DNA of 29,776 bases from a virus: IMG/VR virus record IMGVR_UViG_3300017940_000560, positions 1-29,776 of that record; one strand, given 5' to 3'. The position numbers and the translations under genes were made by a program. Shown here one piece after another: positions 3,169-29,357 of the stretch. Under the pieces are notes generated by a model. That model did not search any database. It had not been told where the DNA came from and was given only the letters and a program-made list of their open reading frames with translations. Within the stretch, counting starts at the first letter, position 1. Every line of letters begins with the position of its first letter.

Positions 3169-5049
3169 ATGGCTATGAGCGATTCAACCCGAAAGAGAGC
3201 TCGAAAAAAGACGCCACTTGTCCCTGGTCCTTCGTCCCTTGCCCGGGAGTCGAGCCCTGGCGCTGAGGAACAAGTGACCAAGAACCAAGGACAAAGGACC
3301 AATGACGAAGGACAAGTGACCAAGGACCAAGGGCAAGTGACAGAAAGCAATCTCTCGACTCATCGCTTGGTTCCATTGCTCCCTTACCAACGTAAATGGA
3401 TCGAGGATGCGTCCCCGCTGAAGATCGTCGTCAAGGCCCGGCAAATCGGCTTCTCTTTTGCCGCCACGCTGCGCGTGGTCCTCGAGTGCCTGAAGAGAAA
3501 GACCACCTGGATCCTGCTCTCCAAGGGCGAGCGGCAATCGCGCCTGCTGATGGAAAAAGTGCAGGAGCACATCCAGTCGTGCGGCATCGTGGCCGAGGCT
3601 CGCGAGTCGCTCTTTTTCGAAGGCACCCTGCTGAAGCAGCTTGAGACGCGCTTTCCCAATGGCTCGGTGATTTACGCTCTGCCCGCCAACCCGGATACGG
3701 CGCGAGGCTACTCCGGCAACGTCACGCTGGACGAATTCGCTTTCCACGCCGACGCCGACAAAATCTACGCCGCGCTCTATCCCTCCATCACCCGCGGCTA
3801 TCAGCTCGAAGTGATTTCCACGCCCAATGGGACGCAGGGGAAGTTTTACGAGTTGGCGAAAGCAGCAGGGCTGATCGGCCGGGATTCGGGATTCGGGGTT
3901 GGGGTTTCGGGTCCCGAACCCCGAACCCCAAACCCCGAACCCCGCCATTGGTCCAGCCACTGGGTCGACATCTACGACGCCGTCCGCCAAGGCCTGAAGA
4001 TCAATGTTCAGCTTCTTCGTGCCGGCTGCGAGGACGAATCCGCCTGGCAACAGGAATTCTGCTGCCAGTTCATTTCGACAGCCGAGAACTTTTTCTCCCC
4101 GGACCTCCTAGCCGCCTGCCTAAGCGCCGAGGCCACCACCGACACCTCCCTCCACATGCTGGCTCGCGAAAGCGATCCCGCTTTGCGGGACTCGGCGCCC
4201 GGCACTCTTTCGGGGTTCGGGATTCGGGGTTCGGGATTCGCAGAAGTACCAGGATTCGGGATTGGGGATTCGGGGTTCGCAGGAAACAACGCGGGGCTCC
4301 GTTCTTCCCAAACCCCGAACCCCGAACCCCGAAGCCCGTCTTCGTTTTTCCTCGGGATCGACATCGGCCGGCATCACGACCGCACCGTGTTCTGGCTAGA
4401 TGAAGTTGTTGGCGGAATTGATTCATTGAGCCATCGGGCCATTGAGCCATTGAAAAACGAAGAGTCTTCCAATCGCTCAATCACTCAATCACCAAATCGC
4501 TCAATTTTCTCCACTGGCTCAATTTCAATCACTCGAGTAGTGCGTACGCTCTCGAACACCCCCTTCGATGACCAACTGGCGTACGCACGCGAGCTCCTTC
4601 TCCTGCGCCAGGGTAGCGGCTCACCCCTTATTCGCCGCGTGGCCATAGATGCCACCGGGATGGGCGCGCCACTTGCCGAGTCCCTCGCGCAGGAGTTTGG
4701 AGCCCGCGTCGAGCCGGTGATTTTCACCGCTGCGGTGAAGGAGGACCTTGCTTACCGCACCAAGCGGCGCATGGAAAGCGGCCTCACGCTTTTGCCCGAC
4801 TCGCGCGAAATTCGCCGGGCCTTTTCGGCGGTGAAGAAATTCGTCACAGTCAGCGGCAACGTGCGCTTTGACGCGGCACGCACCGACGCCGGACACGCCG
4901 ATGAATTCTGGGCCAAGGCGCTGGCCGATCTTGCCGCCGATGTGCGGCCTGTCGCCCACCTCTCCGACGGCTATATCGCCAGCGGCAAGCCGATTATTTC
5001 GCCCAGCGCGTTTATGGAAGCCAACGAGAACTGGAGGACGATTTTTTAG
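3169..5049 (+). CDS. Terminase large subunit (Mu gp28-like ATPase/nuclease)
   Basis: This is the packaging motor that pumps DNA into the prohead and cuts it. The ATPase part shows a Walker A-like KARQIGFS (residue ~89), a Walker B VTLDEF (~185) and an ISTPNG coupling motif (~216). The RNase H-like nuclease part shows GIDIG (~396), VAIDATGMG (~491) and HADEFWAKAL (~576), which carry the expected acidic residues. At least four repeat elements are inserted in frame, at residues ~16-58, ~238-259, ~336-391 and ~417-455. They lie outside all motifs, and without them the 626-residue protein shrinks to roughly 470. The start is ATG 3169 (or 3175). The open frame extends upstream only through hairpins and no good ribosome binding site is seen. 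Confidence 0.88.
   Translation: MAMSDSTRKRARKKTPLVPGPSSLARESSPGAEEQVTKNQGQRTNDEGQVTKDQGQVTESNLSTHRLVPLLPYQRKWIEDASPLKIVVKARQIGFSFAATLRVVLECLKRKTTWILLSKGERQSRLLMEKVQEHIQSCGIVAEARESLFFEGTLLKQLETRFPNGSVIYALPANPDTARGYSGNVTLDEFAFHADADKIYAALYPSITRGYQLEVISTPNGTQGKFYELAKAAGLIGRDSGFGVGVSGPEPRTPNPEPRHWSSHWVDIYDAVRQGLKINVQLLRAGCEDESAWQQEFCCQFISTAENFFSPDLLAACLSAEATTDTSLHMLARESDPALRDSAPGTLSGFGIRGSGFAEVPGFGIGDSGFAGNNAGLRSSQTPNPEPRSPSSFFLGIDIGRHHDRTVFWLDEVVGGIDSLSHRAIEPLKNEESSNRSITQSPNRSIFSTGSISITRVVRTLSNTPFDDQLAYARELLLLRQGSGSPLIRRVAIDATGMGAPLAESLAQEFGARVEPVIFTAAVKEDLAYRTKRRMESGLTLLPDSREIRRAFSAVKKFVTVSGNVRFDAARTDAGHADEFWAKALADLAADVRPVAHLSDGYIASGKPIISPSAFMEANENWRTIF
3215..3341. repeat. In-frame inverted repeat in terminase N-terminus (GGACCAAGG family)
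   Basis: The left arm at 3215-3232 and the right arm at 3322-3339 pair at 16 of 18 positions. Between them are further GACAAAGGACC/GACGAAGGAC words. The purine-rich arm is the same word family that precedes the ATGs at 1112 and 1599. Here it is translated as a Gln/Lys/Thr/Asp-rich segment (EEQVTKNQGQ...) before the ATPase domain. Confidence 0.8.
3881..3945. repeat. In-frame palindromic element, family F, in terminase
   Basis: GGGATTCGGGATTCGGGG words run into their complement CCCGAACCCCGAACCCC, meeting at the TTCGGGTCCCGAA centre (about 3906-3918). It encodes RDSGFGVGVSGPEPRTP followed by NPEPR, between the ISTPNG motif and the linker to the nuclease domain. The same peptide is encoded by family F copies in the protease gene. 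Confidence 0.9.
4176..4340. repeat. In-frame family F element with adjacent 15-nt hairpin, in terminase
   Basis: The hairpin TCCCGC-TTT-GCGGGA (4176-4190) is followed by a long family F element (about 4209-4340): several GGGATTCGGGGTTCG words, a centre of about 35 bases, then CCCCGAACCCC words. The frame stays open for 55 codons and gives a Gly/Phe/Ser/Pro-rich linker just before the nuclease GIDIG motif. Confidence 0.85.
4416..4532. repeat. In-frame inverted repeat, family H, in terminase nuclease domain
   Basis: The left arm is made of ATTGATTCATTGAGCCATTG words and the right arm of CAATCGCTCAATCACTCAATC words. CATCGGGCCATTG (4432-4444) is identical to 19955-19967 in an intergenic family H copy. 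The insert lies between the first nuclease strand (GIDIG) and the rest of the domain, and encodes a Ser/Ile/Asn-rich stretch. Confidence 0.85.
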
Positions 5050-6636: not shown

Positions 6637-6870
6637 TGGCAAGTGGCTAGTGATTTTGGATTTTAGATTTTGGATTTTGGATTGAAAGGAGAAACCAGAT
6701 GCAGGCTACAACGCCGAACAGAACGTCAAGCACGACGATCCTCGCCCAAGTGGGAACCGAAAAGGGACAACGGGCCGTGCAAAATTCTAACTTACCACTT
6801 GCCACTCGCCACTTGCCACTTGGTTCTTCAATCCAAAATCCAAAATCTAAAATCCAAAATCACTTGCCAC
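6626..6870. repeat. Large inverted repeat enclosing the start of the protease gene (perfect 38-bp arms)
   Basis: Positions 6649-6686 and 6827-6864 are perfect reverse complements over 38 bp (GATTTTGGATTTTAG words). Outside and next to them both sides also carry AGTGGCAAGTGG / CCACTTGCCACTCGCC words. The loop holds the AAAGGAG ribosome binding site (6685-6691), the ATG at 6699 and the first ~42 codons, while the right arm is translated (QNPKSKIQN). A transcript could therefore fold the start of the gene into a closed loop. Confidence 0.9.
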
Positions 6871-8597
6871 AGTACCTGATCGTGGACTCGAACGGAAAGG
6901 GCCACTTGCCTGTGCGCGACACCGCGAACGGCCCGCTGAACCATCACCTGATGGGCGCGGCGTGGGCGGCCCTGCACGGAGGTTATCGCGGCAACAAGTA
7001 CGAAGGGCCAGACAAGCAGAAAGCCATTGAGAAACTGAAGGCGCTCTACAGGGCAGAGGGGATGCCGCTGCCGAGCGGGCAGTATCGGGATTCGGGGTTC
7101 GGGGTTAGGGTTTCGGGACCCGAAACCCAAATCCCGAACACCGAACCCCGGTTTGTTGTTGCCCTGAGCGATGTCGGTGCCGGCGCAGTGCGCATTCCGC
7201 TCGCCATCACCGGCAAGTGGGCGCGTGACGCGCAGCAATTCTCCATCACCGAGGACGACCTCGAGGAGATCGTTCGCAATTTTGCCCAGCGCAAAAATGG
7301 CGAGATCAACGTCGATTACGACCACGCCAGCGAAATGCCCGAAGTGGCGGCGGGTGGGCCGATTCCGTCGGCCGGGAGAGTTGTGAAGCTCGACACCCCG
7401 GAAGAATTGCGGGATTCGGGATTCGGGGTTAGGGTTTCGGGTCCCGAAACCCGAACCCCAAAACCCGAACCCCGATTCGTCTTGTACGGGACGTACGAGC
7501 CTACCGACCGCGCGCGCGCACTCATCAAGAATCGTGAATATCGTTACATCTCCCCCGCCATCGATTGGGGCGCGAAATCGAAGCAGACGGGCAAGCCGCA
7601 GGGCACCACGCTCACCAGCGTCGCGCTCACCAATCGGCCGTTCCTGGAAGAGCTGCCGCAGATCCGGCTCTCTGATCCCTCGTATCAGCTCGTGGATGTC
7701 GGCGACGTGCACGTGGATTCCTCGCTGGGATCACCTGAAGACGACGCGATTCGGGATTCGGGGTTAGGGTTTCGCAGAGAAGGACCAAGGGCTTCTTCCG
7801 CTCCGAAAAGCAAACCCCGAATCCCGGAACCCGGTTCTTCTGCGAACCCCGAAACCCGAACCCCGAACCCCGGAAGTCAAACCCCGAACCCCGATTTCAA
7901 AGGAGGTCACATGAAGCAAGTGAAGCTCTCAGTCGAAGACGGCAAGGTGCGCGTCGCGCACGACGATTTTGGTGACGCCTACTACGCCGACCCCGAGGAA
8001 ATGAAACAGTGCCTCGACGATTTGGGCTTCGGCCCGGCGGAGGGTGGCGAAGCGCCGGACGAGTCTGTGGCGGAAGAGATTCGCGACCTGGCCGGGATGC
8101 CCGCGCCGGAAGATGGCGGCGCGTCCGCTCAGCCGGTCGCGACGCTTTCCGAATGCGTCGCCGCGCTGCGGCGCCGGCTCGGGGCGCGCGCCGAGATTTC
8201 ACTCGCCCAGGCCGGCACGCTGCTCTCCGAGAGCGAAGCCGGCGGCAAATTCATCGCCGCCGCCGACTACTTCCGCTGGCGCGTCGAGCAGGAGCTGGAC
8301 CAAGCCGTGAAAAGCGGCAAAGTGCTGCCGCGCCAACGCGACGATTGGAGAAAAATCGCCCTCTCGGATTTTCCCACCTTCCGCAAAATCGTCGCCGAGC
8401 AGAAACCGCAAGTGCCGCTGCGCCCCGTGGGGCTCGCGGGCGCCGGGCCCGAAGACCCGCAGGCGCAAGTCAAGCTGCTGGCCGAGCAGCGCATGAGGGA
8501 GCGCCGCATTTCCTTCGGCCAGGCGCTCAGCGAGATCGGGCGCGAGCAGCCGGAACTCGTTCACCAGTATCGCCGCGCCGTGAGCGGAGGTGAGTAG
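6699..8597 (+). CDS. Prohead protease with fused scaffold (Mu I-like)
   Basis: The 632-residue product matches the Mu I-like protease at residues ~152-345: VRIPLAITGKWARDAQQFSI, the conserved INVDYDHAS, then YRYISPAIDWG and TSVALTNRPFLEELPQ. It matures the prohead by cleaving scaffold and probably itself. Residues ~60-128 (HLMGAAWAALHGGYRGNK...) form a separate small domain I do not recognise. Residues 405-632 are a charged, helical scaffold-like region with its own start (see 7911). Repeats are inserted in frame at residues ~28-58, 130-151, 238-259 and 351-398, always between domains or in loops, so the protease core motifs are intact. ATG 6699 has AAAGGAG 7 bases upstream. Confidence 0.82.
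   Translation: MQATTPNRTSSTTILAQVGTEKGQRAVQNSNLPLATRHLPLGSSIQNPKSKIQNHLPQYLIVDSNGKGHLPVRDTANGPLNHHLMGAAWAALHGGYRGNKYEGPDKQKAIEKLKALYRAEGMPLPSGQYRDSGFGVRVSGPETQIPNTEPRFVVALSDVGAGAVRIPLAITGKWARDAQQFSITEDDLEEIVRNFAQRKNGEINVDYDHASEMPEVAAGGPIPSAGRVVKLDTPEELRDSGFGVRVSGPETRTPKPEPRFVLYGTYEPTDRARALIKNREYRYISPAIDWGAKSKQTGKPQGTTLTSVALTNRPFLEELPQIRLSDPSYQLVDVGDVHVDSSLGSPEDDAIRDSGLGFRREGPRASSAPKSKPRIPEPGSSANPETRTPNPGSQTPNPDFKGGHMKQVKLSVEDGKVRVAHDDFGDAYYADPEEMKQCLDDLGFGPAEGGEAPDESVAEEIRDLAGMPAPEDGGASAQPVATLSECVAALRRRLGARAEISLAQAGTLLSESEAGGKFIAAADYFRWRVEQELDQAVKSGKVLPRQRDDWRKIALSDFPTFRKIVAEQKPQVPLRPVGLAGAGPEDPQAQVKLLAEQRMRERRISFGQALSEIGREQPELVHQYRRAVSGGE
7086..7152. repeat. In-frame palindromic element, family F, copy 1 in protease gene
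   Basis: CGGGATTCGGGGTTCGGGG words run into their complement around the TTTCGGGACCCGAAA centre. It encodes RDSGFGVRVSGPETQIP and then NTEPRF, between the N-terminal domain and the protease core. Copy 2 at 7410-7474 has the same frame and nearly the same peptide. Confidence 0.9.
7410..7474. repeat. In-frame palindromic element, family F, copy 2 in protease gene
   Basis: It has the same architecture and frame as copy 1, encoding RDSGFGVRVSGPETRTP then KPEPRF. It interrupts the protease domain between GRVVKLDTPEEL and VLYGTYEPTDRARAL, a position that must be a surface loop if the enzyme is active. Confidence 0.9.
7749..7893. repeat. In-frame long family F element joining protease and scaffold
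   Basis: CGGGATTCGGGGTTAGGG words, an internal segment, then two blocks of CCCCGAACCCC words. The internal segment TTTCGCAGA..AAGGACC.AGG (7770-7790) matches 17677-17697 at 19 of 21 positions, so long family F copies share a defined core. The element ends 17 bases before the scaffold ATG and may have removed an ancestral stop codon. Confidence 0.85.
7911..8597 (+). CDS. Scaffold protein from an internal start inside the protease gene
   Basis: The in-frame ATG at 7911 has a near-perfect ribosome binding site, AAAGGAGG, at 7899-7906, the strongest kind seen in this window. Translation from here gives a 228-residue acidic, helix-rich protein (EEMKQCLDDLGFGP near the start, then IAAADYFRWRVEQELDQAV) without a protease domain. 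Mu makes its scaffold (Z) from an internal start in the I gene, so this is the expected layout. Scaffold shapes the prohead and is removed by the protease. Alternatively, it was a separate gene joined to the protease when a repeat landed in the spacer. Both full-length and short forms may be made. Confidence 0.6.
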   Translation: MKQVKLSVEDGKVRVAHDDFGDAYYADPEEMKQCLDDLGFGPAEGGEAPDESVAEEIRDLAGMPAPEDGGASAQPVATLSECVAALRRRLGARAEISLAQAGTLLSESEAGGKFIAAADYFRWRVEQELDQAVKSGKVLPRQRDDWRKIALSDFPTFRKIVAEQKPQVPLRPVGLAGAGPEDPQAQVKLLAEQRMRERRISFGQALSEIGREQPELVHQYRRAVSGGE

Positions 8598-11569: not shown

Positions 11570-12124
11570 ATGACTCAACGATATCAAGCGCAATTCGCGA
11601 AGCAGCTTGTCAACCAGTTGATCGCTATTTTGCAGCGCGATCAGCAGGCAGCGCTCGCGGTCATCAACGCGTCGCGCCCCCCGGGCCGGACGCTGAATCC
11701 TTTCGCGGCGTTCTTCAAAGAAGCGGCGCCGATTCAAAACTGGCCGGCAATCGTCCTGGTCGCTCGCACCGCGCAGTTCGACCAGGCTTCCGACGCCGAC
11801 CTGCGGACTCAAACACACGCTTTTTTCTGTGCCATGGCGATTTCAGGCACGGACCCCGAGTGGCTGGCCGATGACGCGATGGACTATTTGCACGCTGTGG
11901 ACATCGTTTTGACTTCCGTGCCACTCGGGGACTTTTATCTGCCGCTGCCCATCAGTCACCGCACCGTGCCCAGCGGCCAGACCAGCGGGCTAAGTTCGGC
12001 GGTCAGCAAAATCCAGGATCTGCGCGTTACCCGGCACGACATGGGCTCGCTCGTCGCACGCCGCGGCGGCACGCTGGCCCGCGGCCCGCAGATTGAATTC
12101 GTGATCGAGTTGGAGGAAAGATGA
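11570..12124 (+). CDS. Tail terminator / neck protein (Mu gp37-like position)
   Basis: The 184-residue protein has a helical N-terminal third ([18 protein letters not shown]), then beta-prone segments ([27 protein letters not shown]) and a mixed C-terminus ending FVIELEER. The size, alternating pattern and place between the gpG-like gene and the tail genes suggest a tail terminator or neck protein. No diagnostic motif is visible. ATG 11570 lies directly after a family B repeat and has no clear ribosome binding site. Its own end encodes GAGGAAAG, which serves the next gene, whose ATG overlaps this stop (12121-12124). Confidence 0.45.
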
Positions 12125-15100
12125 GATCGGAAATTAGAAATCAGAAATCAGAAATCAGAAGCAATGAACTAGAAGTCCAGAGCAAGAGATCGGCTTTCAG
12201 CGGCAGCGTGGAAACAGCCGCTGCTCGTCATTCTGTTTTCTGCTTTCTAATTTCTGCTTTCTGCCTTCTGCTTTCCGCGTTCTGCTTCTTGCCTTCTGCT
12301 TTCGCCAACACCCAGGTGACCGGAGTGTATTCCCTTCCCGCCAACGCCGTGGTGATGACCACGGTCAACGGTAACCCCGAATACGGGCTGATCTTTGCCC
12401 AACGCAACAAGCCGGTGACCTATAACGGGACTCTGTATTTTAACAATGTGGTGAATGCCTATTTGGATGTCAACGGCAACATAAACGACGGGAACGGGAA
12501 CGCAGGGATCAACTTGATTCCCGACGCCAACGCCACGCCGGGCGACAGCTACTACGTGGTGACCATCAACATCCAGGGCACGGTGCACACGGAAATCTGG
12601 ATTGTTCCGGACCAGCCGTCGGTCAACGTCGCCTCGATCATCCAGCCCTCTGCGCCGCCGTCGGGCGGGACCGCACCGCCCACCTTCTTTTATCAGACCT
12701 TGCAGCAGACGGGAGCGAACTTGCCACAGCGGCCGGCGCTGAACCTCAGCGGCTCCGGCGTGAGCTGCGTTGATAACTCGGGTCTCCAGCGGACGGACTG
12801 CACGATCAGCGGGTCGCAAGCCAGCACGGCCACGCCCACCGCGCCCGGCACGGTGGAGACCGATCAATTCGCATCCATGCCGGTTGTTTACCTCAAGAGC
12901 AGCACGGACTCTTTGCTCACCGGCAGGGTCCCGACCAGCCGGCAGGTCCTAACCACAGCGCCTCTCTCGGGTGGCGGCCCCCTCGCCTCCGACCTCACGC
13001 TCTCGATGCCGCAGGCCATGAGTACACAAAGTGGCTATCTCGCTTCCACAGACTGGTCAACCTTTAATTCCAAGCTGAGCACTGCCGTCACCAGCGTGGG
13101 CTTCGTCGGCGACGGCACAGTGCTCAGCTCCACGCCCAGCTCGCCCGTGACGACCACGGGCAACGTTTCGGCAACACTCTTGTCGCAAACGAAGAACACG
13201 TTCCTGGCCGGGCCGGCAAGCGGCAGCGCTGCCCCGCCGATCTTCCGCGCGCTGGCGAGTGCGGACCTGCCCGCCATCAATCTGGCCGCGAGCGGCGCCG
13301 GCGGTGTAACAGGCAACTTACCGGTGAGCAATCTCAACGGCGGCACAAACGCCTCAAGCACTACATTCTGGCGCGGTGACGGCACTTGGGCAACGCCAGC
13401 CGGCGGCGGGAACGGCACGGTTAACTCCGGCACCGCCGGGCACCTGGCCTACTACGCGACTTCGACGAACGCCGTGAGCGACATGGGCTCGGACTTCAGC
13501 TTCAACACGCATACGCTCAGCGGAGGGCCTTCGGCCATTCTCGATCTGAGCGCGGCGAGCCTCGCTAACGTGAAGTTAAACTCGAGCGGCTTCACGAATG
13601 GCGACATGGTGATCGGCAACGTCTCAGGCGGAGTCTTGAATCTGGCCGATGGCGGCTCGCCGATTGTCAAGTGGAACGCGAATGCCAATCCGAGCGGCGA
13701 TCTGAACCTGACTATGAATGGTTTTCAGAGCGTGCTGAGCGGCCACAATTTCGGCAGCGGCTCGACCAAAGATGGCTTTGTCGTCAGCGACCTCTCGACG
13801 AATCAGAGTTCGGGCTACGCGCAAACTTGGTCTATCGCCTCGGGCGGCGGATCGTTGTGGCATGGCCCGCGAGTCTTGCAGGCCACGGCAGCGACAAGCT
13901 CCAACAATTATGCTTCGAACGGCTTTCATTGGCATTCGACCTATTGGAACGGGTCGGTGTCGGCGATTGACGAATGGAAACTCGCGCCGGTGCTAGGTTC
14001 GGGCGCCAATCCCACTTCAACACTGACTGCGTCGCATACGGGTTCGAGCGGCGCCGCGGCAGTTAGCCTTCCGGCGTTGACGTTGACCAACGTAGCTTCG
14101 GGGACGCAGTGCCTGCACGCCAATTCATCCGGCGCGGTGACCGGCACCGGGTCGGATTGCGGCTCGGGCGGCCTGGGCGATCCCGGCAGCAATGGGATCG
14201 TGAAGCGAACCGCACTAAATACTACGGCCATCGCCACCTCAACGGATGTCGTTGGGCTCTTCACATCCTGTTCGGGAACGCAGTACCTGGGCGCAGATGG
14301 TGCCTGCCACACCGCCGGCGGCAGCGGAACGGTCACGCAATCCAGCAGCGCGCAGTACCAAACTGCCGCATTCACTACCGCGACCAACATTACCGGCATT
14401 GGCCCTGGCACTTCCGGGCAGTGCTACATGTCGAATGGCGCCAGCTCCAATCCGTCATTTCAAACCTGCCCCGGATCGTCAGGCGGAACGACGATGAATG
14501 TGAACGGCAGCGCGGTGGCGGCGACATTGAACCTTGGCAACCTGCCCGCCGCGCAGACAGGGGACGTGCTCGGCGTGTGGCAGTATTCGAGTGGCAATGC
14601 TTCAGCCGAAATTCCGACCAGCAGCACCACGACGCCGAGTAAAGTTGCCTCGGCTTCCGGCGCCTTTACCAGTGGCCACGGGGTCAAGGCGAATGCGACG
14701 GGCGACCTGATAGATTCCGGGGCGGCCTACGTAGACAGCACGCAGTTGGTTTCGTCGATGCAGTTTTCGACCTGCGCCACTATCAGTGCGACCGGTTATG
14801 TCGGTGTGTGTTTTAAGAATGCCGCAGAGACGACTCTTCAGTCGCCCGTTGCTTTCTCGTCCGGCACCTTAAAGTCAATGGTTGCTTTCTTCTCCGCAGC
14901 CCCCGGAACGAGCATTACCTGGACTGTCACGGGACGCTGCGGTCCCACTTCAGCGCACTGCACGCCCGGGAACACTGTGTTTTCAACCACCGATCTTGGT
15001 GGCGGTTCATCTGGCACTTGCGTCGTGACCGGAACGTCGCAGCAAGTGTGCGGCGTCTCAGGCGGAAGCACAGCTATTCAAGAAGGCGATTTTGTAGATA

Positions 15101-15183
15101 TCTACGTTGCAGCCTCAGGTGGAACGCCTGCCGCTGCGCTGGTCAATATCACACTTCAATTTACAGGGGTGACGCCGAAGTGA
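12121..15183 (+). CDS. Exported tail-fibre-like protein with repeat-derived signal peptide
   Basis: The 1020-residue protein is rich in Ser, Thr, Gly and Ala. Residues 1-35 are polar/basic, ~39-62 are strongly hydrophobic ([17 protein letters not shown]) and end in SAFA, a plausible signal-peptidase site. Residues ~64-165 form a beta-domain ([12 protein letters not shown]..., IWIVPDQPS). The rest is repetitive fibre sequence with [31 protein letters not shown] and repeated Cys pairs ([13 protein letters not shown]). This resembles phage fibre shafts. The ATG overlaps the previous stop and has GAGGAAAG, so the repeat-derived N-terminus is very probably translated. A signal peptide is odd for a virion fibre, and the place, before the tail tube gene, is also unusual. 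It could be a fibre or a secreted adhesin carried as cargo. Confidence 0.6.
12122..12305. repeat. In-frame inverted repeat forming a signal-peptide region (AAATCAGA / TTTCTGC words)
   Basis: The left arm (AAATTAGAAATCAGAA at 12131-12146, with more copies of AATCAGA) and the right arm (12238-12253, one mismatch over 16, then TTCTGCTTTCTGCC words to about 12305) belong to the spacer type seen elsewhere but lie entirely within codons. The purine arm encodes Arg/Lys/Asn/Gln/Ser/Glu. The pyrimidine arm encodes Phe/Cys/Leu/Ala. Confidence 0.85.
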
Positions 15184-16904
15184 TGAAGAGATCTCAACAC
15201 CAAGGCACCAAGGCACAAAGAAGGATTTTTATGAGAACAGTTCTTGGTGTCTTTGTGTCTTGGTGTTTCATCTCTTCTTCCGCGATCGCCCAGAATCCGC
15301 CTTGGCAATTCGGATATCCCGGCCAGGCCCAGCCCGGCTCGAATGGCCTCGGCGACTGGCAGAGCGAGCCGCTCAACACTCTGGACTGTCGCAGTCTGTA
15401 CAAGGGCCAGTACGGCTACGGGCTTTACGGTTGTCAGCTCGATCCTGCGAACCCTAATTATCCTCCGCCCGATCTGGTGGCGTTGCTCAAAGCGGCCGAT
15501 GCCGCTATCCGGCCGCTGGATACGACCGGGGCCGCAAACTCCGCTGAGTGTGGCGTGAACACCGGAGGCTGCGTGGTGGCCGTGGACGCAGGGTACAGCA
15601 TTCTGCACGACAAAATGTGCGCGCGCACCGACAGTAGCGGCGACTTTACGTCGCCACCCAACTGCGAATCGACTTCATGGACGGGTTTCTTGAGGCCAAG
15701 CGGCTCGTTTTCGCAACCCAACGTGGATTGGTATACCAATACCTCTCCAGCCGGACATTTGATCTGGATTGACGGAGCGCAGGTAGGCGTGGCGTGTGGA
15801 AGCTGGAACGCCAACAATCAGACCACCTGGAATAATTTCGAGAGCGGCGCAGGCACGCTCTTCAACACTTTCGGGCTTTCAACGAACCAGGTGCAGGTTG
15901 TCTACCTTCAAATGTGGAACGGCAATGAAGTGGGGTCGAATCCGAGCGGGGATTTTGCCGCCAACGTTCTGCCTAGCTCAACCTCATCCGCAATCCTCAA
16001 TCAGACTTGCATGTCGAGCATCATGCGCTGGCTGCCAAACCACTATCCGCACCTTCAGGTCATCTTCCTGGGAACGATGAGCTACCTGTGGGATTTGGCC
16101 GCGCACATTCAGTACGTGGGCTTCCCTGGGCAGGCGGGCATCTCCAGCGAAAGCACAAAGGGCAGCATCCCGCCCTACGACCTCGAATACGGCTGGACCA
16201 ACCAATTCATCGTGAAAGCCTGGCTATTGCAGCGGCGAAGCCGCGTGCCGGTTGCGTCAACGAGTCGGGCCAGCGGAACAGAGACCGTGACCTTGTCTTC
16301 TCCGATGTTTTCAACGGACACCTACGGCGACACGATGTATCCGGGGAACGGCGGCCACTTTAGTGCGCAAGTCCAAGGCAATTCGGACAGCGCATCGAAC
16401 ACCTGCGGCGTCATGACCTCCTTGCCCACCACTTGCAACGGGGTCACGGCTACGGTAGTGGACTCTACTCACGTCACGTTTTCAACCGGGGCGGGCACGA
16501 CATCTGGCACGGGCGGGTATCTCTCTATCGTTCAAGACGCGAACTCCGGGGGCCTCGATACCGTGCCGCCCGTGGCCTGGGCTGACTATTCCTGGGACAA
16601 CACGATGTACTGCACGGCGACCTTTGACTACACGCATCCTTGCGGTCCAAGCGACACCTGCACAGCGCAGCGCGGGAATTATGCCGGATGCTGCACTCAG
16701 AACGACACGACCGGCCACTGCTCAGCCTCTCTTTTCCCCGGCTACAGCGGGGCGGCACACGATAATCCGTACAACTCGACCGGACGAGGCCAGTGGTTTC
16801 AGGCCAACAAGATGGCGCAATACTTTTTTGGCCCGACGACGACCTGGACGACGTTTCTGTGCCAGACAGGATTCAAGACGCCGGGAAGCGGCTGCGCGAA
16901 CTGA
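15183..16904 (+). CDS. Exported protein, possibly SGNH-hydrolase-like
   Basis: The 573-residue product starts at the ATG overlapping the previous TGA (15181-15185). It has a basic n-region, a hydrophobic core (VLGVFVSWCFISSSA) and AIAQ as a plausible cleavage site, so it should be exported. The mature part is Cys-rich. VQVVYLQMWNGNEVG (~240), HYPHLQVIFLGTMSYLW (~286), PYDLEYGWTNQFIVKAWL (~330) and the late DYTHP and DNPYNSTGRGQWFQANKMAQYFF regions recall acidobacterial secreted proteins that look like diverged SGNH hydrolases. A classical GDS motif is not seen, so activity is doubtful. A beta-rich insert lies around residues 355-455. It could modify host-surface polysaccharide or be virion-associated. 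Low certainty. Confidence 0.45.
   Translation: MKRSQHQGTKAQRRIFMRTVLGVFVSWCFISSSAIAQNPPWQFGYPGQAQPGSNGLGDWQSEPLNTLDCRSLYKGQYGYGLYGCQLDPANPNYPPPDLVALLKAADAAIRPLDTTGAANSAECGVNTGGCVVAVDAGYSILHDKMCARTDSSGDFTSPPNCESTSWTGFLRPSGSFSQPNVDWYTNTSPAGHLIWIDGAQVGVACGSWNANNQTTWNNFESGAGTLFNTFGLSTNQVQVVYLQMWNGNEVGSNPSGDFAANVLPSSTSSAILNQTCMSSIMRWLPNHYPHLQVIFLGTMSYLWDLAAHIQYVGFPGQAGISSESTKGSIPPYDLEYGWTNQFIVKAWLLQRRSRVPVASTSRASGTETVTLSSPMFSTDTYGDTMYPGNGGHFSAQVQGNSDSASNTCGVMTSLPTTCNGVTATVVDSTHVTFSTGAGTTSGTGGYLSIVQDANSGGLDTVPPVAWADYSWDNTMYCTATFDYTHPCGPSDTCTAQRGNYAGCCTQNDTTGHCSASLFPGYSGAAHDNPYNSTGRGQWFQANKMAQYFFGPTTTWTTFLCQTGFKTPGSGCAN
15198..15265. repeat. In-frame inverted repeat, family K, forming a signal-peptide region
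   Basis: CACCAAGGCACCAAGGCAC words (15198-15220) face CTTGGTGTCTTTGTGTCTTGG (15243-15263). The same words form the intergenic element at 279-342. Here the left arm encodes HQGTKAQRR (n-region) and the right arm LGVFVSWCF (hydrophobic core). Confidence 0.85.
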
Positions 16905-26088: not shown

Positions 26089-26171
26089 GCGTGCGGCGCC
26101 ATTAGCGCACGACTTTGAATTAAGGCCTGCCCTTGCTGGTGATTTTGAAGCCAGGTCCATGAGGTGATCGT

Positions 26172-29100
26172 ATGTTGAAAGCAGCATCTAAAAGTCAAAA
26201 GCTAGAAGTTAGGAGTCAGGAGTCAGGAGTCAGGGGTCGGAACGGGCACGATGCGCTGCGAGTTGCTCTGATCGTGGTCGTTCTAACTTGCTCGTCACTC
26301 TTCACTCGTCACTCGTCACTAGTTTTGGGGCAGCAGCCGCAGGCGGAAGGCGGCCAGCCCGTTTACGCCGTCAATGCGAAGTACGTCCAGGGCGTGGGTC
26401 CTGGCTATTGGGTGACGGCGGGGACTTGGCCCAACGTGAACATTGCCGCGGGAACGGCTTTTTGCGGCAATCCGCAGGCCCCAGTCAGCTATCCCGGCGG
26501 CACCCTGCCCATGACCGCGAGCGCGACGAATTACGTGTATCTGGACCCAGCCAATAACTGTGTGCCGGCCTCTAACACCAGCGGCTTCGTCGCCGGTCAA
26601 GTCCCTCTGGCGGAAGTCAGCACGGGGAGCTCGTCCATCAACTCGATCACCGACGTGCGAACTTGGTCTGTGCCGCAGCCGCTGGGCACCGACTCCACGG
26701 GTCACGTCGAGGCCACGCGATTCTGCGACCAATTTTCCGGTTCCACGCCTTGTGCCAGCGCCATCTCAAATGCCGGAACGAACGGCGCGCTCATCGTGAA
26801 TCCCGCGAGCAAGTCCAGCTCCACGGAGGCAATCTGCGGCGCGGGCAGTATCTACAGCGGCATCACCTCGATGACAGGTAACTCCAATGGGTGCTCGAAT
26901 AGTCCCAATCTCCAGGTTTGGGACTTCCGCGACGGGCTTCACGTCACCAACTACGATTCGCCGGGCAACGCGACTGACAGCGGCGGCCTTCCGAATCTCA
27001 TCGTCGGCAATCAGTGGGTGGGGAATCGCTACCGAAGCAGCGGCTATACTCAGTTCATGAATGTAGTGGAAAACGAGTTTTCCCAGAAGGTCTTTGATGG
27101 CGGAAGGAATCTCTACAACTGGCCCTATTACGCCGACAAAAGCGTCTTCAAGGCCGTTAACATCGCCGGACAGTACTACACGCCTGCTGAACACATTCCT
27201 CTGAGCATCCAGACGCTCAGCGGGGCGACGGGCGACACCATCGGCCTCGAAGTGTTGAGCATGAACTACGGAGGCGCGAGCACGATGGGTGACGAGGGGT
27301 TGGAGTCGGCCGGCTTCACCGCTTATCAGGTGAGTGACGTATACTCCGGCACGATCTGTGGTCCGCCCTCCTGCCCTGCATTATCTCAAGGGGCCACGCA
27401 GATCACCGTGAGCAATCTCCAGTCCGAGACCGAGCAGGGCGCCGGGCGCCCGTTGCTCGATATTTCCAAAGGCAGCAATGGCACGCTCTCTTCCCTTGGG
27501 ACGTATAACCTCGGCGCATGGACCTGGCCGCAGTATGTTGGCAACGGCACGTCGTGGACTGCGAACACCGTGCTGGCCCTGACCGACGCTGCGATCCCGG
27601 GTCCGAACTGCAACCCTACTACCACCCTGCCTGCCACCTGCACAGTGACGCCGGCCAGTTACACCATGGGGACGAACTTGAGCGGTGTCACCACTAACAC
27701 GCCCATCGTCATCGGCGATGACGGAAGTTACGAGATTGTGAAAGCCACTGCCTTCTCCGGAAACCCTCAAACCGCCTTCACTGCGACTTTCAATAAGCCG
27801 CACCCTCCGGGAGCGGTAGTGAGCATTGCCAACGGTGGCGCGTGCGCATCGGGCAACGCTGGAGCCTGCGCGGGTTACTATGTCGAGTTGGTCTCGGACC
27901 GTTACGGCGAGGCTGGATATAGTTCGACGTGCGGAGTCTCGCCCGCGGTGAACTGTGTTCGTCAGGCGTTCCCGATACTTGCCGTCACTGACAGCTCCCA
28001 CCTGATTCCATGGGCGGTTGGCAACAACGGAATCGGTTACTCCGGCCATGGGATCAGCGGAAGCTGCTCGCCACCCACCTGCACGGGCTGGCAGCAGTCC
28101 AACCAGTACTACGTTTTTCCGGGGGCCGAGGTTCTTTCGTGGCAGCAAAACGGGAAGCTTTCGGACACGGCAACGCTGGCCCCGAACAACGTCAACTGGG
28201 CAAGCGGCGAGATGGTCGAAAATCAACACTACTGGCAATTCGATTCCAGCGCGAACGTGTTCTCCGGCGTGCACAAATTATTGCCCTACGTGGGGAACGC
28301 GCCGAGCAGCACGATGCTGATTCAACTGTCCGGGCACGGATGGCAGAGGAGCGAAAATGCGATTGGCGTCCAAAATTTGAACGACCCGTCAGAGTATGCG
28401 GACTATGTCAATGGGGCTCCCTTCTCGCCGCCTGCCGTGATCACTGCTCAAGGGCTATTCTTCTACGGAATGTGGCTCCCGACTGCCCCCAGCGTTTACG
28501 GTGGCGCAGCCATCCGGATTGGCTGCCCGGCTGCGCAAGTGAATAACGGGACCCCCGTCAACACGGGCACGAACTGTTCCGCCAATCAGCCCGTCTACGA
28601 CATGATAAACTCTGACGCTGCGGGGTCGGACTCTCTCTACCTCAATCCTTCGTCTTCACAGTTTGTCTTGACAGCCTCGAACGGCACCAAATCTTATATC
28701 TTCGGAGCGAGCGCGCTCAGCGTACCGCAGACGATCACACCCTCCTCCGCCGGCGTCGGGGACCTTGGGTCGGCCTCGCTCCCGTTCGGCAACCTGTGGC
28801 TGGGCAGTGCGGCTACCAACAACATCAAAGTCACCGGCACGGCAACAGGCGCGCGCACCCAGACCCTGCAAGACGTGACCGACACCTTCGTCTACAGGGC
28901 TTCTGTCGACACGTTGACTAACAAGACGCTGACCTCGCCCGTGATCAATGGGGGCGTGACGTCGACCGGCGCCATCTCGCTCACCGCGGGCGGAACGAAC
29001 CAGAACGTCACACTCACGCCTAGCGGCACGGGCGCGGTTACGGCGCGAAACTTTGCCACATCACTGAACGTCGTGACGTTCTCAGGGACGCCTACCTTCG

Positions 29101-29357
29101 ACGCGTCCCTCGGCAACACCCAAAAGATTACGCTCACCGGCAACGTCACCAGTTCGACGCTCGCCAACGCTTCTGCGGGCGAGCAATTGAACTTCATCAT
29201 CTGCCAGGACTCGACCGGCAGCAGGACCTTCGTCTGGCCCTCAAACGTGAAGGGCGCAATGACGATTGGCTCGACCGCCTCGAAATGCAGCGCGCAGAGC
29301 TTTGTGTTCGACGGCAGCAACGCGGAAGCAACCTCTCCAGGCGTCACTAACATGTGA
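26172..29357 (+). CDS. Large exported tail-fibre/tailspike-like protein
   Basis: The 1061-residue product has a basic/polar n-region, a hydrophobic core (LRVALIVVVLTCSSLF) and a plausible signal cleavage near VLGQQ. Residues ~65-175 form a beta-domain with YVYLDPANNC, PLAEVSTGSSSI and ITDVRTWS, as in phage fibre N-domains. The large middle (GDTIGLEVLSMNYGGASTM...) is beta-rich and could be a beta-helix. The end is typical fibre sequence: GSASLPFGNLWLGSAATNN, VDTLTNKTLTSPVING and LTPSGTGAVTARNFATS. It probably binds host surface structures. GAGGTGATCGT places the ribosome binding site before ATG 26172, so the N-terminal signal segment, encoded by repeat words, is included. Confidence 0.62.
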   Translation: MLKAASKSQKLEVRSQESGVRGRNGHDALRVALIVVVLTCSSLFTRHSSLVLGQQPQAEGGQPVYAVNAKYVQGVGPGYWVTAGTWPNVNIAAGTAFCGNPQAPVSYPGGTLPMTASATNYVYLDPANNCVPASNTSGFVAGQVPLAEVSTGSSSINSITDVRTWSVPQPLGTDSTGHVEATRFCDQFSGSTPCASAISNAGTNGALIVNPASKSSSTEAICGAGSIYSGITSMTGNSNGCSNSPNLQVWDFRDGLHVTNYDSPGNATDSGGLPNLIVGNQWVGNRYRSSGYTQFMNVVENEFSQKVFDGGRNLYNWPYYADKSVFKAVNIAGQYYTPAEHIPLSIQTLSGATGDTIGLEVLSMNYGGASTMGDEGLESAGFTAYQVSDVYSGTICGPPSCPALSQGATQITVSNLQSETEQGAGRPLLDISKGSNGTLSSLGTYNLGAWTWPQYVGNGTSWTANTVLALTDAAIPGPNCNPTTTLPATCTVTPASYTMGTNLSGVTTNTPIVIGDDGSYEIVKATAFSGNPQTAFTATFNKPHPPGAVVSIANGGACASGNAGACAGYYVELVSDRYGEAGYSSTCGVSPAVNCVRQAFPILAVTDSSHLIPWAVGNNGIGYSGHGISGSCSPPTCTGWQQSNQYYVFPGAEVLSWQQNGKLSDTATLAPNNVNWASGEMVENQHYWQFDSSANVFSGVHKLLPYVGNAPSSTMLIQLSGHGWQRSENAIGVQNLNDPSEYADYVNGAPFSPPAVITAQGLFFYGMWLPTAPSVYGGAAIRIGCPAAQVNNGTPVNTGTNCSANQPVYDMINSDAAGSDSLYLNPSSSQFVLTASNGTKSYIFGASALSVPQTITPSSAGVGDLGSASLPFGNLWLGSAATNNIKVTGTATGARTQTLQDVTDTFVYRASVDTLTNKTLTSPVINGGVTSTGAISLTAGGTNQNVTLTPSGTGAVTARNFATSLNVVTFSGTPTFDASLGNTQKITLTGNVTSSTLANASAGEQLNFIICQDSTGSRTFVWPSNVKGAMTIGSTASKCSAQSFVFDGSNAEATSPGVTNM
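26191..26330. repeat. In-frame repeat words forming the fibre signal-peptide region
   Basis: AGTCAGGAGTCAGGAGTCAGG words and CTCGTCACTCTTCACTCGTCACTCG-type words flank a unique centre. CAAAAGCTAG (26196-26205) pairs with CTAGTTTTG (26319-26327), apart from one unpaired base, so the outer ends are inverted, while the inner words are only loosely complementary. It encodes QKLEVRSQESGVRGR on one side and CSSLFTRHSSLVL on the other. Confidence 0.6.

Follow-up and report, generated by a model that had tools for sequence, protein, structure and literature searches.

The window, a virus record of 29,776 bp, encodes a Terminase_6 terminase, a Mu-type portal, a Mu-like protease and a major head protein. 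Its close relatives, with a capsid identity of 72–77%, are IMG/VR contigs and Acidobacteriota/Terriglobia MAGs, and the window itself belongs to a phage of Acidobacteriota, which are soil bacteria. No isolated phage relatives were found in INPHARED, and the whole window yielded no match to Rfam families at gathering score. The analysis concerns three genes, designated by the start positions 12121, 15183 and 26172, whose mature proteins had no matches in Pfam or PHROGs. Gene calls were made with a simple caller, and signal peptides were called from hydropathy, charge and the -3/-1 rule with a core cut-off of mean KD 1.9. The features are collected in Table 1; other loci are referred to by L numbers.

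Table 1. Features of the three genes in the window and palindromes at junctions of related phages.
Feature	Position	Strand	Basis or remark
Upstream conserved phage gene	11504..12124	+	TGA stop overlaps ATG of gene 12121
Shine-Dalgarno GGAGG for the 12121 start	12112..12116	+	Sequence; kept before the coupled start in orthologues
62-codon n-region and signal-peptide segment, swapped among related phages	12121..12306	+	Orthologue comparison
Purine-rich heptamer array (AGAAATC)n, 72% purine, coding polar, basic residues	12126..12164	+	Array detector
Pyrimidine-rich heptamer array, TTCTGCT type, coding hydrophobic core and c-region	12231..12303	+	
Mature part of fibre-like protein, stop codon included	12307..15183	+	Orthologue identity
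Octamer inverted-repeat element and signal peptide of second gene	15183..15290	+	Mature start 15291
Purine-rich octamer arm (CACCAAGG/CACAAAGA)	15195..15222	+	Array detector
Pyrimidine-rich octamer arm, coding VLGVFVSWCF	15240..15269	+	
Signal-peptide segment of third gene, Shine-Dalgarno GAGG at 26161-26164	26172..26330	+	Sequence, family alignment
Purine-rich heptamer array (GAGTCAG)n	26199..26241	+	Array detector
Pyrimidine-rich heptamer array (GTCACTC)n	26290..26325	+	30/35 identical to L085 signal-peptide array
GTAGCG...CGCTAC junction palindromes	L138 2793-2858; L258 373-463, 1529-1598; L261 536-623		

The window is rich in short tandem arrays. A detector for periods of 7 and 8 reported 71 arrays in the window and 0–3 in shuffled copies, and the resulting density of 2.38/kb is 8–24 times that of sampled host-genome contigs (0.10–0.30/kb). 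Among related prophages the density ranges from 0 to 3.2/kb. The arrays do not form a single recognisable repeat sequence family of the kind that defines a Rickettsia palindromic element or a bacterial MITE, since 573 of them fall into 224 canonical heptamer classes. Arrays of 7-nt units are mostly intergenic (68–89% by group) with a median length of 30 nt. Where two arrays form an inverted pair, a purine-rich array followed by a pyrimidine-rich one (R-Y) is the rule, with 62 R-Y pairs against 8 Y-R pairs; this layout is inherent, as the purine-rich arm of such a palindrome comes first whichever strand is read. By comparison with L083, L082, L085 and L090, the window terminase and Mu-like protease contain in-frame insertions of heptamer or octamer arrays (4207–4281, 4462–4500, 6753–6872 and 7698–7835), a tolerance of repeats within essential phage genes that resembles that seen with Rickettsia palindromes.

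Gene 12121 follows a conserved gene whose homologues, 66–78% identical, occupy the same place in L082, L083, L085, L086 and L090. Its start lies in an ATGA that overlaps the stop of this upstream gene, and the overlap together with the Shine-Dalgarno sequence supports the assigned start. The preliminary description held that about 60 codons at the beginning of this gene are repeat sequence, which is borne out by 62 codons of opposed heptamer arrays. The arms at 12128–12160 and 12245–12277 are 82% complementary over 33 nt. Within the pyrimidine-rich array, the detector found 12231–12282 (16–17% purine) and the remainder to approximately 12303 was assigned by eye. The mature part shares 55–59% identity with its orthologues over the first 118 amino acids. 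Broad viral matches to the fibre repeats (L003–L081) were uninformative on the N-terminus, and a structure model of the N-terminal domain of the family was unusable (pLDDT = 39). In L090, the gene at this position (12902–15010) encodes pectate-lyase-like and NosD beta-helix domains behind a signal peptide and is thus tailspike-like.

The same repeat style and length had been assigned to the starts of the other two genes, where the description applies only in part. Gene 15183 does possess an inverted repeat (15196–15222/15241–15267, 85% complementary); however, its unit is an octamer and not a heptamer, and it spans about 28 codons rather than 60. The purine-rich arm runs into the Shine-Dalgarno sequence AAGGA (15221–15225), which lies 5 nt upstream of an ATG at 15231 and past the arm. 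The gene caller favors 15231, which is likely the better start. The resulting signal peptide, MRTVLGVFVSWCFISSSAIA with QNPPW beginning the mature protein, is textbook-like. The only relative of this protein, L029, is a weak match (26% identical) with an array-free signal peptide.

Gene 26172 does begin with two repeat arrays, but these consist of different heptamers, and a repeat search reported no inverted repeat between 26199–26241 and 26290–26325. Much of the hydrophobic core falls between the arms, including most of the codons of the strongest 10-residue core (VALIVVVLTC), and the mature protein is predicted to start at 26331 (QQPQAEGG). The protein belongs to family C, for which 31 viral loci were compared, and in most of these the residues preceding QQPQ form an ordinary signal peptide free of arrays. 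Only the window, L227, L266, L267, L268 and L272 have arrays close to that peptide. The family is tail-fibre-like (L263–L289; window 26172–29357), and ordinary predicted Sec signal peptides are kept in most contigs.

Orthologues of gene 12121, designated family A, provide the most informative comparison. Ten further sequence-distinct members occupy this junction in phages and prophages related to the window, so that the set comprises the window, L258, L259 (= L083), L163, L260 (= L085), L164, L261, L262, L295 (= L138), L297 (= L136) and L298 (= L137). All eleven N-termini are signal-peptide-like and derive partly or wholly from heptamer arrays of about eight classes (TTCTGCT, CTTCTTT/CTTCTGG, CTTCTGT, GTCACTT, TTCACTG, CTGACTT, CTTCCTA and mixtures). 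The signal-peptide rule calls ten of the eleven; L163 falls short with a best core of 1.69 against the cut-off of 1.9. In ten members the detected pyrimidine-rich array ends 8–11 nt before the mature start, and in several orthologues the arrays cover only part of the signal peptide (47–86% of its last 66 nt). The last three residues before the mature domain are AFA (three members), SFA and ALS (two each), and SYA, AFS, AFG and AIA, which places the small residues expected for signal peptidase I at -3 and -1. Ten members retain the ATGA overlap together with its GGAGG. In L083, a stop codon closes the frame of the coupled ATG 11 codons on, and the signal peptide would instead be read in a different frame from a GTG that has a separate Shine-Dalgarno sequence.

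The L083 arrangement and the better start of gene 15183 past its purine-rich arm would both fit a reading in which the repeat segments are an untranslated or mis-annotated leader, with translation starting downstream and no signal peptide made. Both alternative starts nevertheless keep the full hydrophobic core and cleavage motif. In gene 12121, the only in-frame starts between the assigned ATG and the mature part are a GTG that lacks a Shine-Dalgarno sequence and a TTG inside the core. Since the hydrophobic core is also held in frame across unrelated DNA, this reading is extremely improbable.

How unrelated the DNA has become is evident when the upstream gene, the element and the mature part are aligned separately. 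For L260 and L295, DNA identity falls from 88% in the upstream gene to 39% in the element and rises again to 85% in the mature part; the corresponding values are 88/50/83% for L258 and L261, and 86/46/77% for L258 and L295. Identity between the ATGA and the mature start drops to 39–50% where the flanks are 83–88% identical, and the homology breakpoints fall at the ATGA overlap and at the mature start. No target-site duplication was evident at these two breakpoints on a non-systematic look. The converse is seen between L261 (2330–2500) and L262 (2840–3010), where the signal element is 97% identical and the flanks are 85% and 82% identical, so that the element behaves as a unit; its greater similarity suggests a recent transfer of the element alone. 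Such replacement is also seen at other junctions in these phages, in some cases by another palindrome type (GTAG...CTAC). This REP-like palindrome, GTAGCG...CGCTAC, is found at junctions where relatives have heptamer arrays.

Arrays are also common to unrelated proteins. The L085 array of family A and the L267 array of family C are identical at 33 of 35 nt, and related copies of the L085-type array lie between genes in host chromosome contigs. In most members of the unrelated families A, C and D, the pyrimidine-rich array ends 6–11 nt before the mature start, and a further unrelated gene, in L154, has a TTCTGCC-type array inside its signal peptide. Across 18 array-bearing signal peptides, the best 10-residue uncharged core has a mean KD of 1.69–3.25 with K/R upstream. 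The frame that is used is the most hydrophobic of the three in 16 of these 18, a bias indicative of selection at the level of the translated product. Within the phage set, 11 of 32 genes with a signal peptide have an array that overlaps it, as compared to 16 of 326 N-termini of other genes (odds ratio 10, p = 2.5e-6), with the qualification that orthologues are not independent.

The preliminary description proposed that an inverted repeat with purine/pyrimidine strand bias would automatically produce an n-region and an h-region. As neither 7 nor 8 is divisible by 3, a perfect array of either period encodes one cyclic peptide in all three frames. In theory, 833 of 3,710 pyrimidine-rich heptamers (22%) give a core with a mean KD of at least 1.9, and no purine-rich heptamer does. 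With the signal peptides of the window itself left out of the count, real arrays encode a hydrophobic core in 4.2% of pyrimidine-strand frames, or 10% if strongly pyrimidine-rich. Composition-matched shuffles of the arrays reach the cut-off in 6% and, for the strongly pyrimidine-rich, 12%; random genomic 48-mers do so in 1.6%. Complete R-Y elements outside known signal peptides have an open hydrophobic reading in 2.8% of cases versus 1.9% for random DNA. What stands of the proposal is that the N-termini are Sec-like and largely repeat DNA, and that the R-then-Y layout is inherent; the outcome is not automatic, as some 4% of array readings suffice and complete elements barely exceed random DNA. 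The R-Y layout adds little, and the elements found in signal peptides are a selected subset.

It had further been proposed that the repeats offer a route to new export signals, with the palindromic element creating them de novo in previously non-exported proteins. Every close family-A member bears arrays and none of the close relatives has an array-free, prior signal peptide, the array-free state being confined to distant relatives and family C; an R-Y layout also yields polar residues followed by more hydrophobic ones. Against this, signal peptides free of arrays are present in most family C viral contigs, at the family-A locus of L082, and in the distant family-A relatives L304 and L310, and R-Y elements elsewhere are export-like hardly more often than random DNA. 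De novo creation is therefore very unlikely. Since array-free signal peptides are usual in family C and present in L082, the signal peptides appear to predate the arrays, at least in family C. The direction would then be the reverse of that first proposed, in that repeats probably replaced existing export signals and did not invent them.

The idea that host secreted proteins might also draw on these repeats was addressed in approximately 1.68 Mb from seven host MAGs, sampled by stretches. Arrays were not enriched in signal peptides, occurring in 4 of 381 signal-peptide genes and 4 of 850 others (p = 0.26), and host-wide use of arrays in signal peptides was rejected for this sample. Two of the four host signal-peptide genes with an array belong to the L227 prophage. 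The phenomenon belongs to these phages.

Most of the signal segments fold into RNA hairpins better than dinucleotide shuffles do, with z ≤ -1.9 in 11 of 13, and the lowest value, -6.7, is that of the 15183 element; the 26172 segment folds moderately (z = -2.5). One could suppose that the element is kept for an RNA or DNA hairpin serving mRNA stability, translational coupling or recombination, with the coding sequence constrained only not to break an ordinary signal peptide. Besides the folding, this would agree with arms that often change together and with the mostly intergenic placement of the same elements elsewhere. The segments of L258 (z = -0.7) and L163 (z = -1.1), however, fold no better than shuffles and yet keep their signal-peptide character, and the arms of the 26172 segment are different heptamers. 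As the sole reason for the elements, a hairpin is distinctly unlikely. A hairpin role may exist alongside the signal peptide but does not account for the in-frame hydrophobicity; it is compatible with the explanation given below, to which it mostly adds.

The explanation that probably holds is that exchangeable heptamer palindromes occupy the gene junctions of these phages and, at junctions that encode a signal peptide, replace the DNA as selection maintains a predicted capacity for export. The junctions would be filled with short palindromes in which, usually, a loop separates a purine array of some five heptamers from a pyrimidine array, and these would be exchanged wholesale at a given junction among related phages. 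Several fibre-like late proteins would bear ancestral Sec signal peptides, such that the exchangeable element comes to lie inside the reading frame from the start codon, often in an ATGA overlap, to the signal-peptidase site. At such a site, the purine arm would encode a basic n-region or else serve in ribosome binding, and the pyrimidine arm would encode the final part of the h-region together with the c-region as far as about residue -4. Only elements that are open in frame and hydrophobic would survive selection for export, with the function persisting as the DNA becomes unrelated heptamers. Exchange presumably proceeds by recombination or by copying of dispersed elements rather than by slippage in place, and the proteins are presumably exported by Sec. 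A stronger version, in which true mobile signal-peptide cassettes are exchanged as a unit of export signal and 5' hairpin between otherwise unrelated fibre-like genes, possibly to adaptive effect, is unlikely; if it were true, cassette exchange might tune expression or export upon a host switch.

Mobile palindromic cassettes that combine an early promoter and a stem-loop (PeSL) are present at gene junctions of T4-type phages, where they are intergenic, regulatory and linked to modular shuffling. In contrast, the cassette described here lies inside the reading frame and codes a predicted export signal. A single-gene precedent exists in Yersinia, where the RU-2/YPAL repeat forms part of the YPO1552 signal peptide and relatives have signal peptides unrelated to the repeat (Delihas 2007, PMC2759123, PMC2229807). 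That case involves one gene and one conserved repeat sequence, whereas in the phages the repeats serve three or more protein families, belong to about eight heptamer classes and have been swapped repeatedly at a single site. Rickettsia palindromic elements likewise insert in frame into protein genes, as the arrays do in the terminase and protease of the window; however, they form sequence families of about 105–146 bp, and the phage elements have only a heptamer architecture in common. Heptameric tandem repeats are described in Xanthomonas and Nostoc (GGGAATC, GGGGAYT; PMC4692102) and in Calothrix, and these are similarly short (mostly about four units in Xanthomonas), intergenic, sometimes in inverted pairs and variable between relatives. 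They comprise one heptamer type per genome, and no coding role is described in the portions of that literature consulted, unlike the many heptamer types, systematic R-Y pairing and signal-peptide coding of the phages. Replacement of signal-peptide sequence with preservation of function is described for GDF/BMP proteins in the part of the source consulted (PMC2717928), although these are vertebrate genes without a repeat cassette. Relative to the open-licence PMC literature, what is new is that the phenomenon recurs in several protein families and heptamer classes, that the swap is clean, with conserved sequence on both sides, and that the position relative to the cleavage site is fixed.

The family-A junction may be regarded as a natural experiment on the sequence demands of a signal peptide, which appear small, since unrelated repeats have repeatedly replaced the DNA at one site. 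Despite this replacement, an in-frame hydrophobic core and a cleavage motif remain. The finding raises the question of why phage fibre-like proteins carry predicted Sec signals. It also provides a concrete way, with a simple period-7/8 rule, for non-coding palindromic repeats to become protein sequence.
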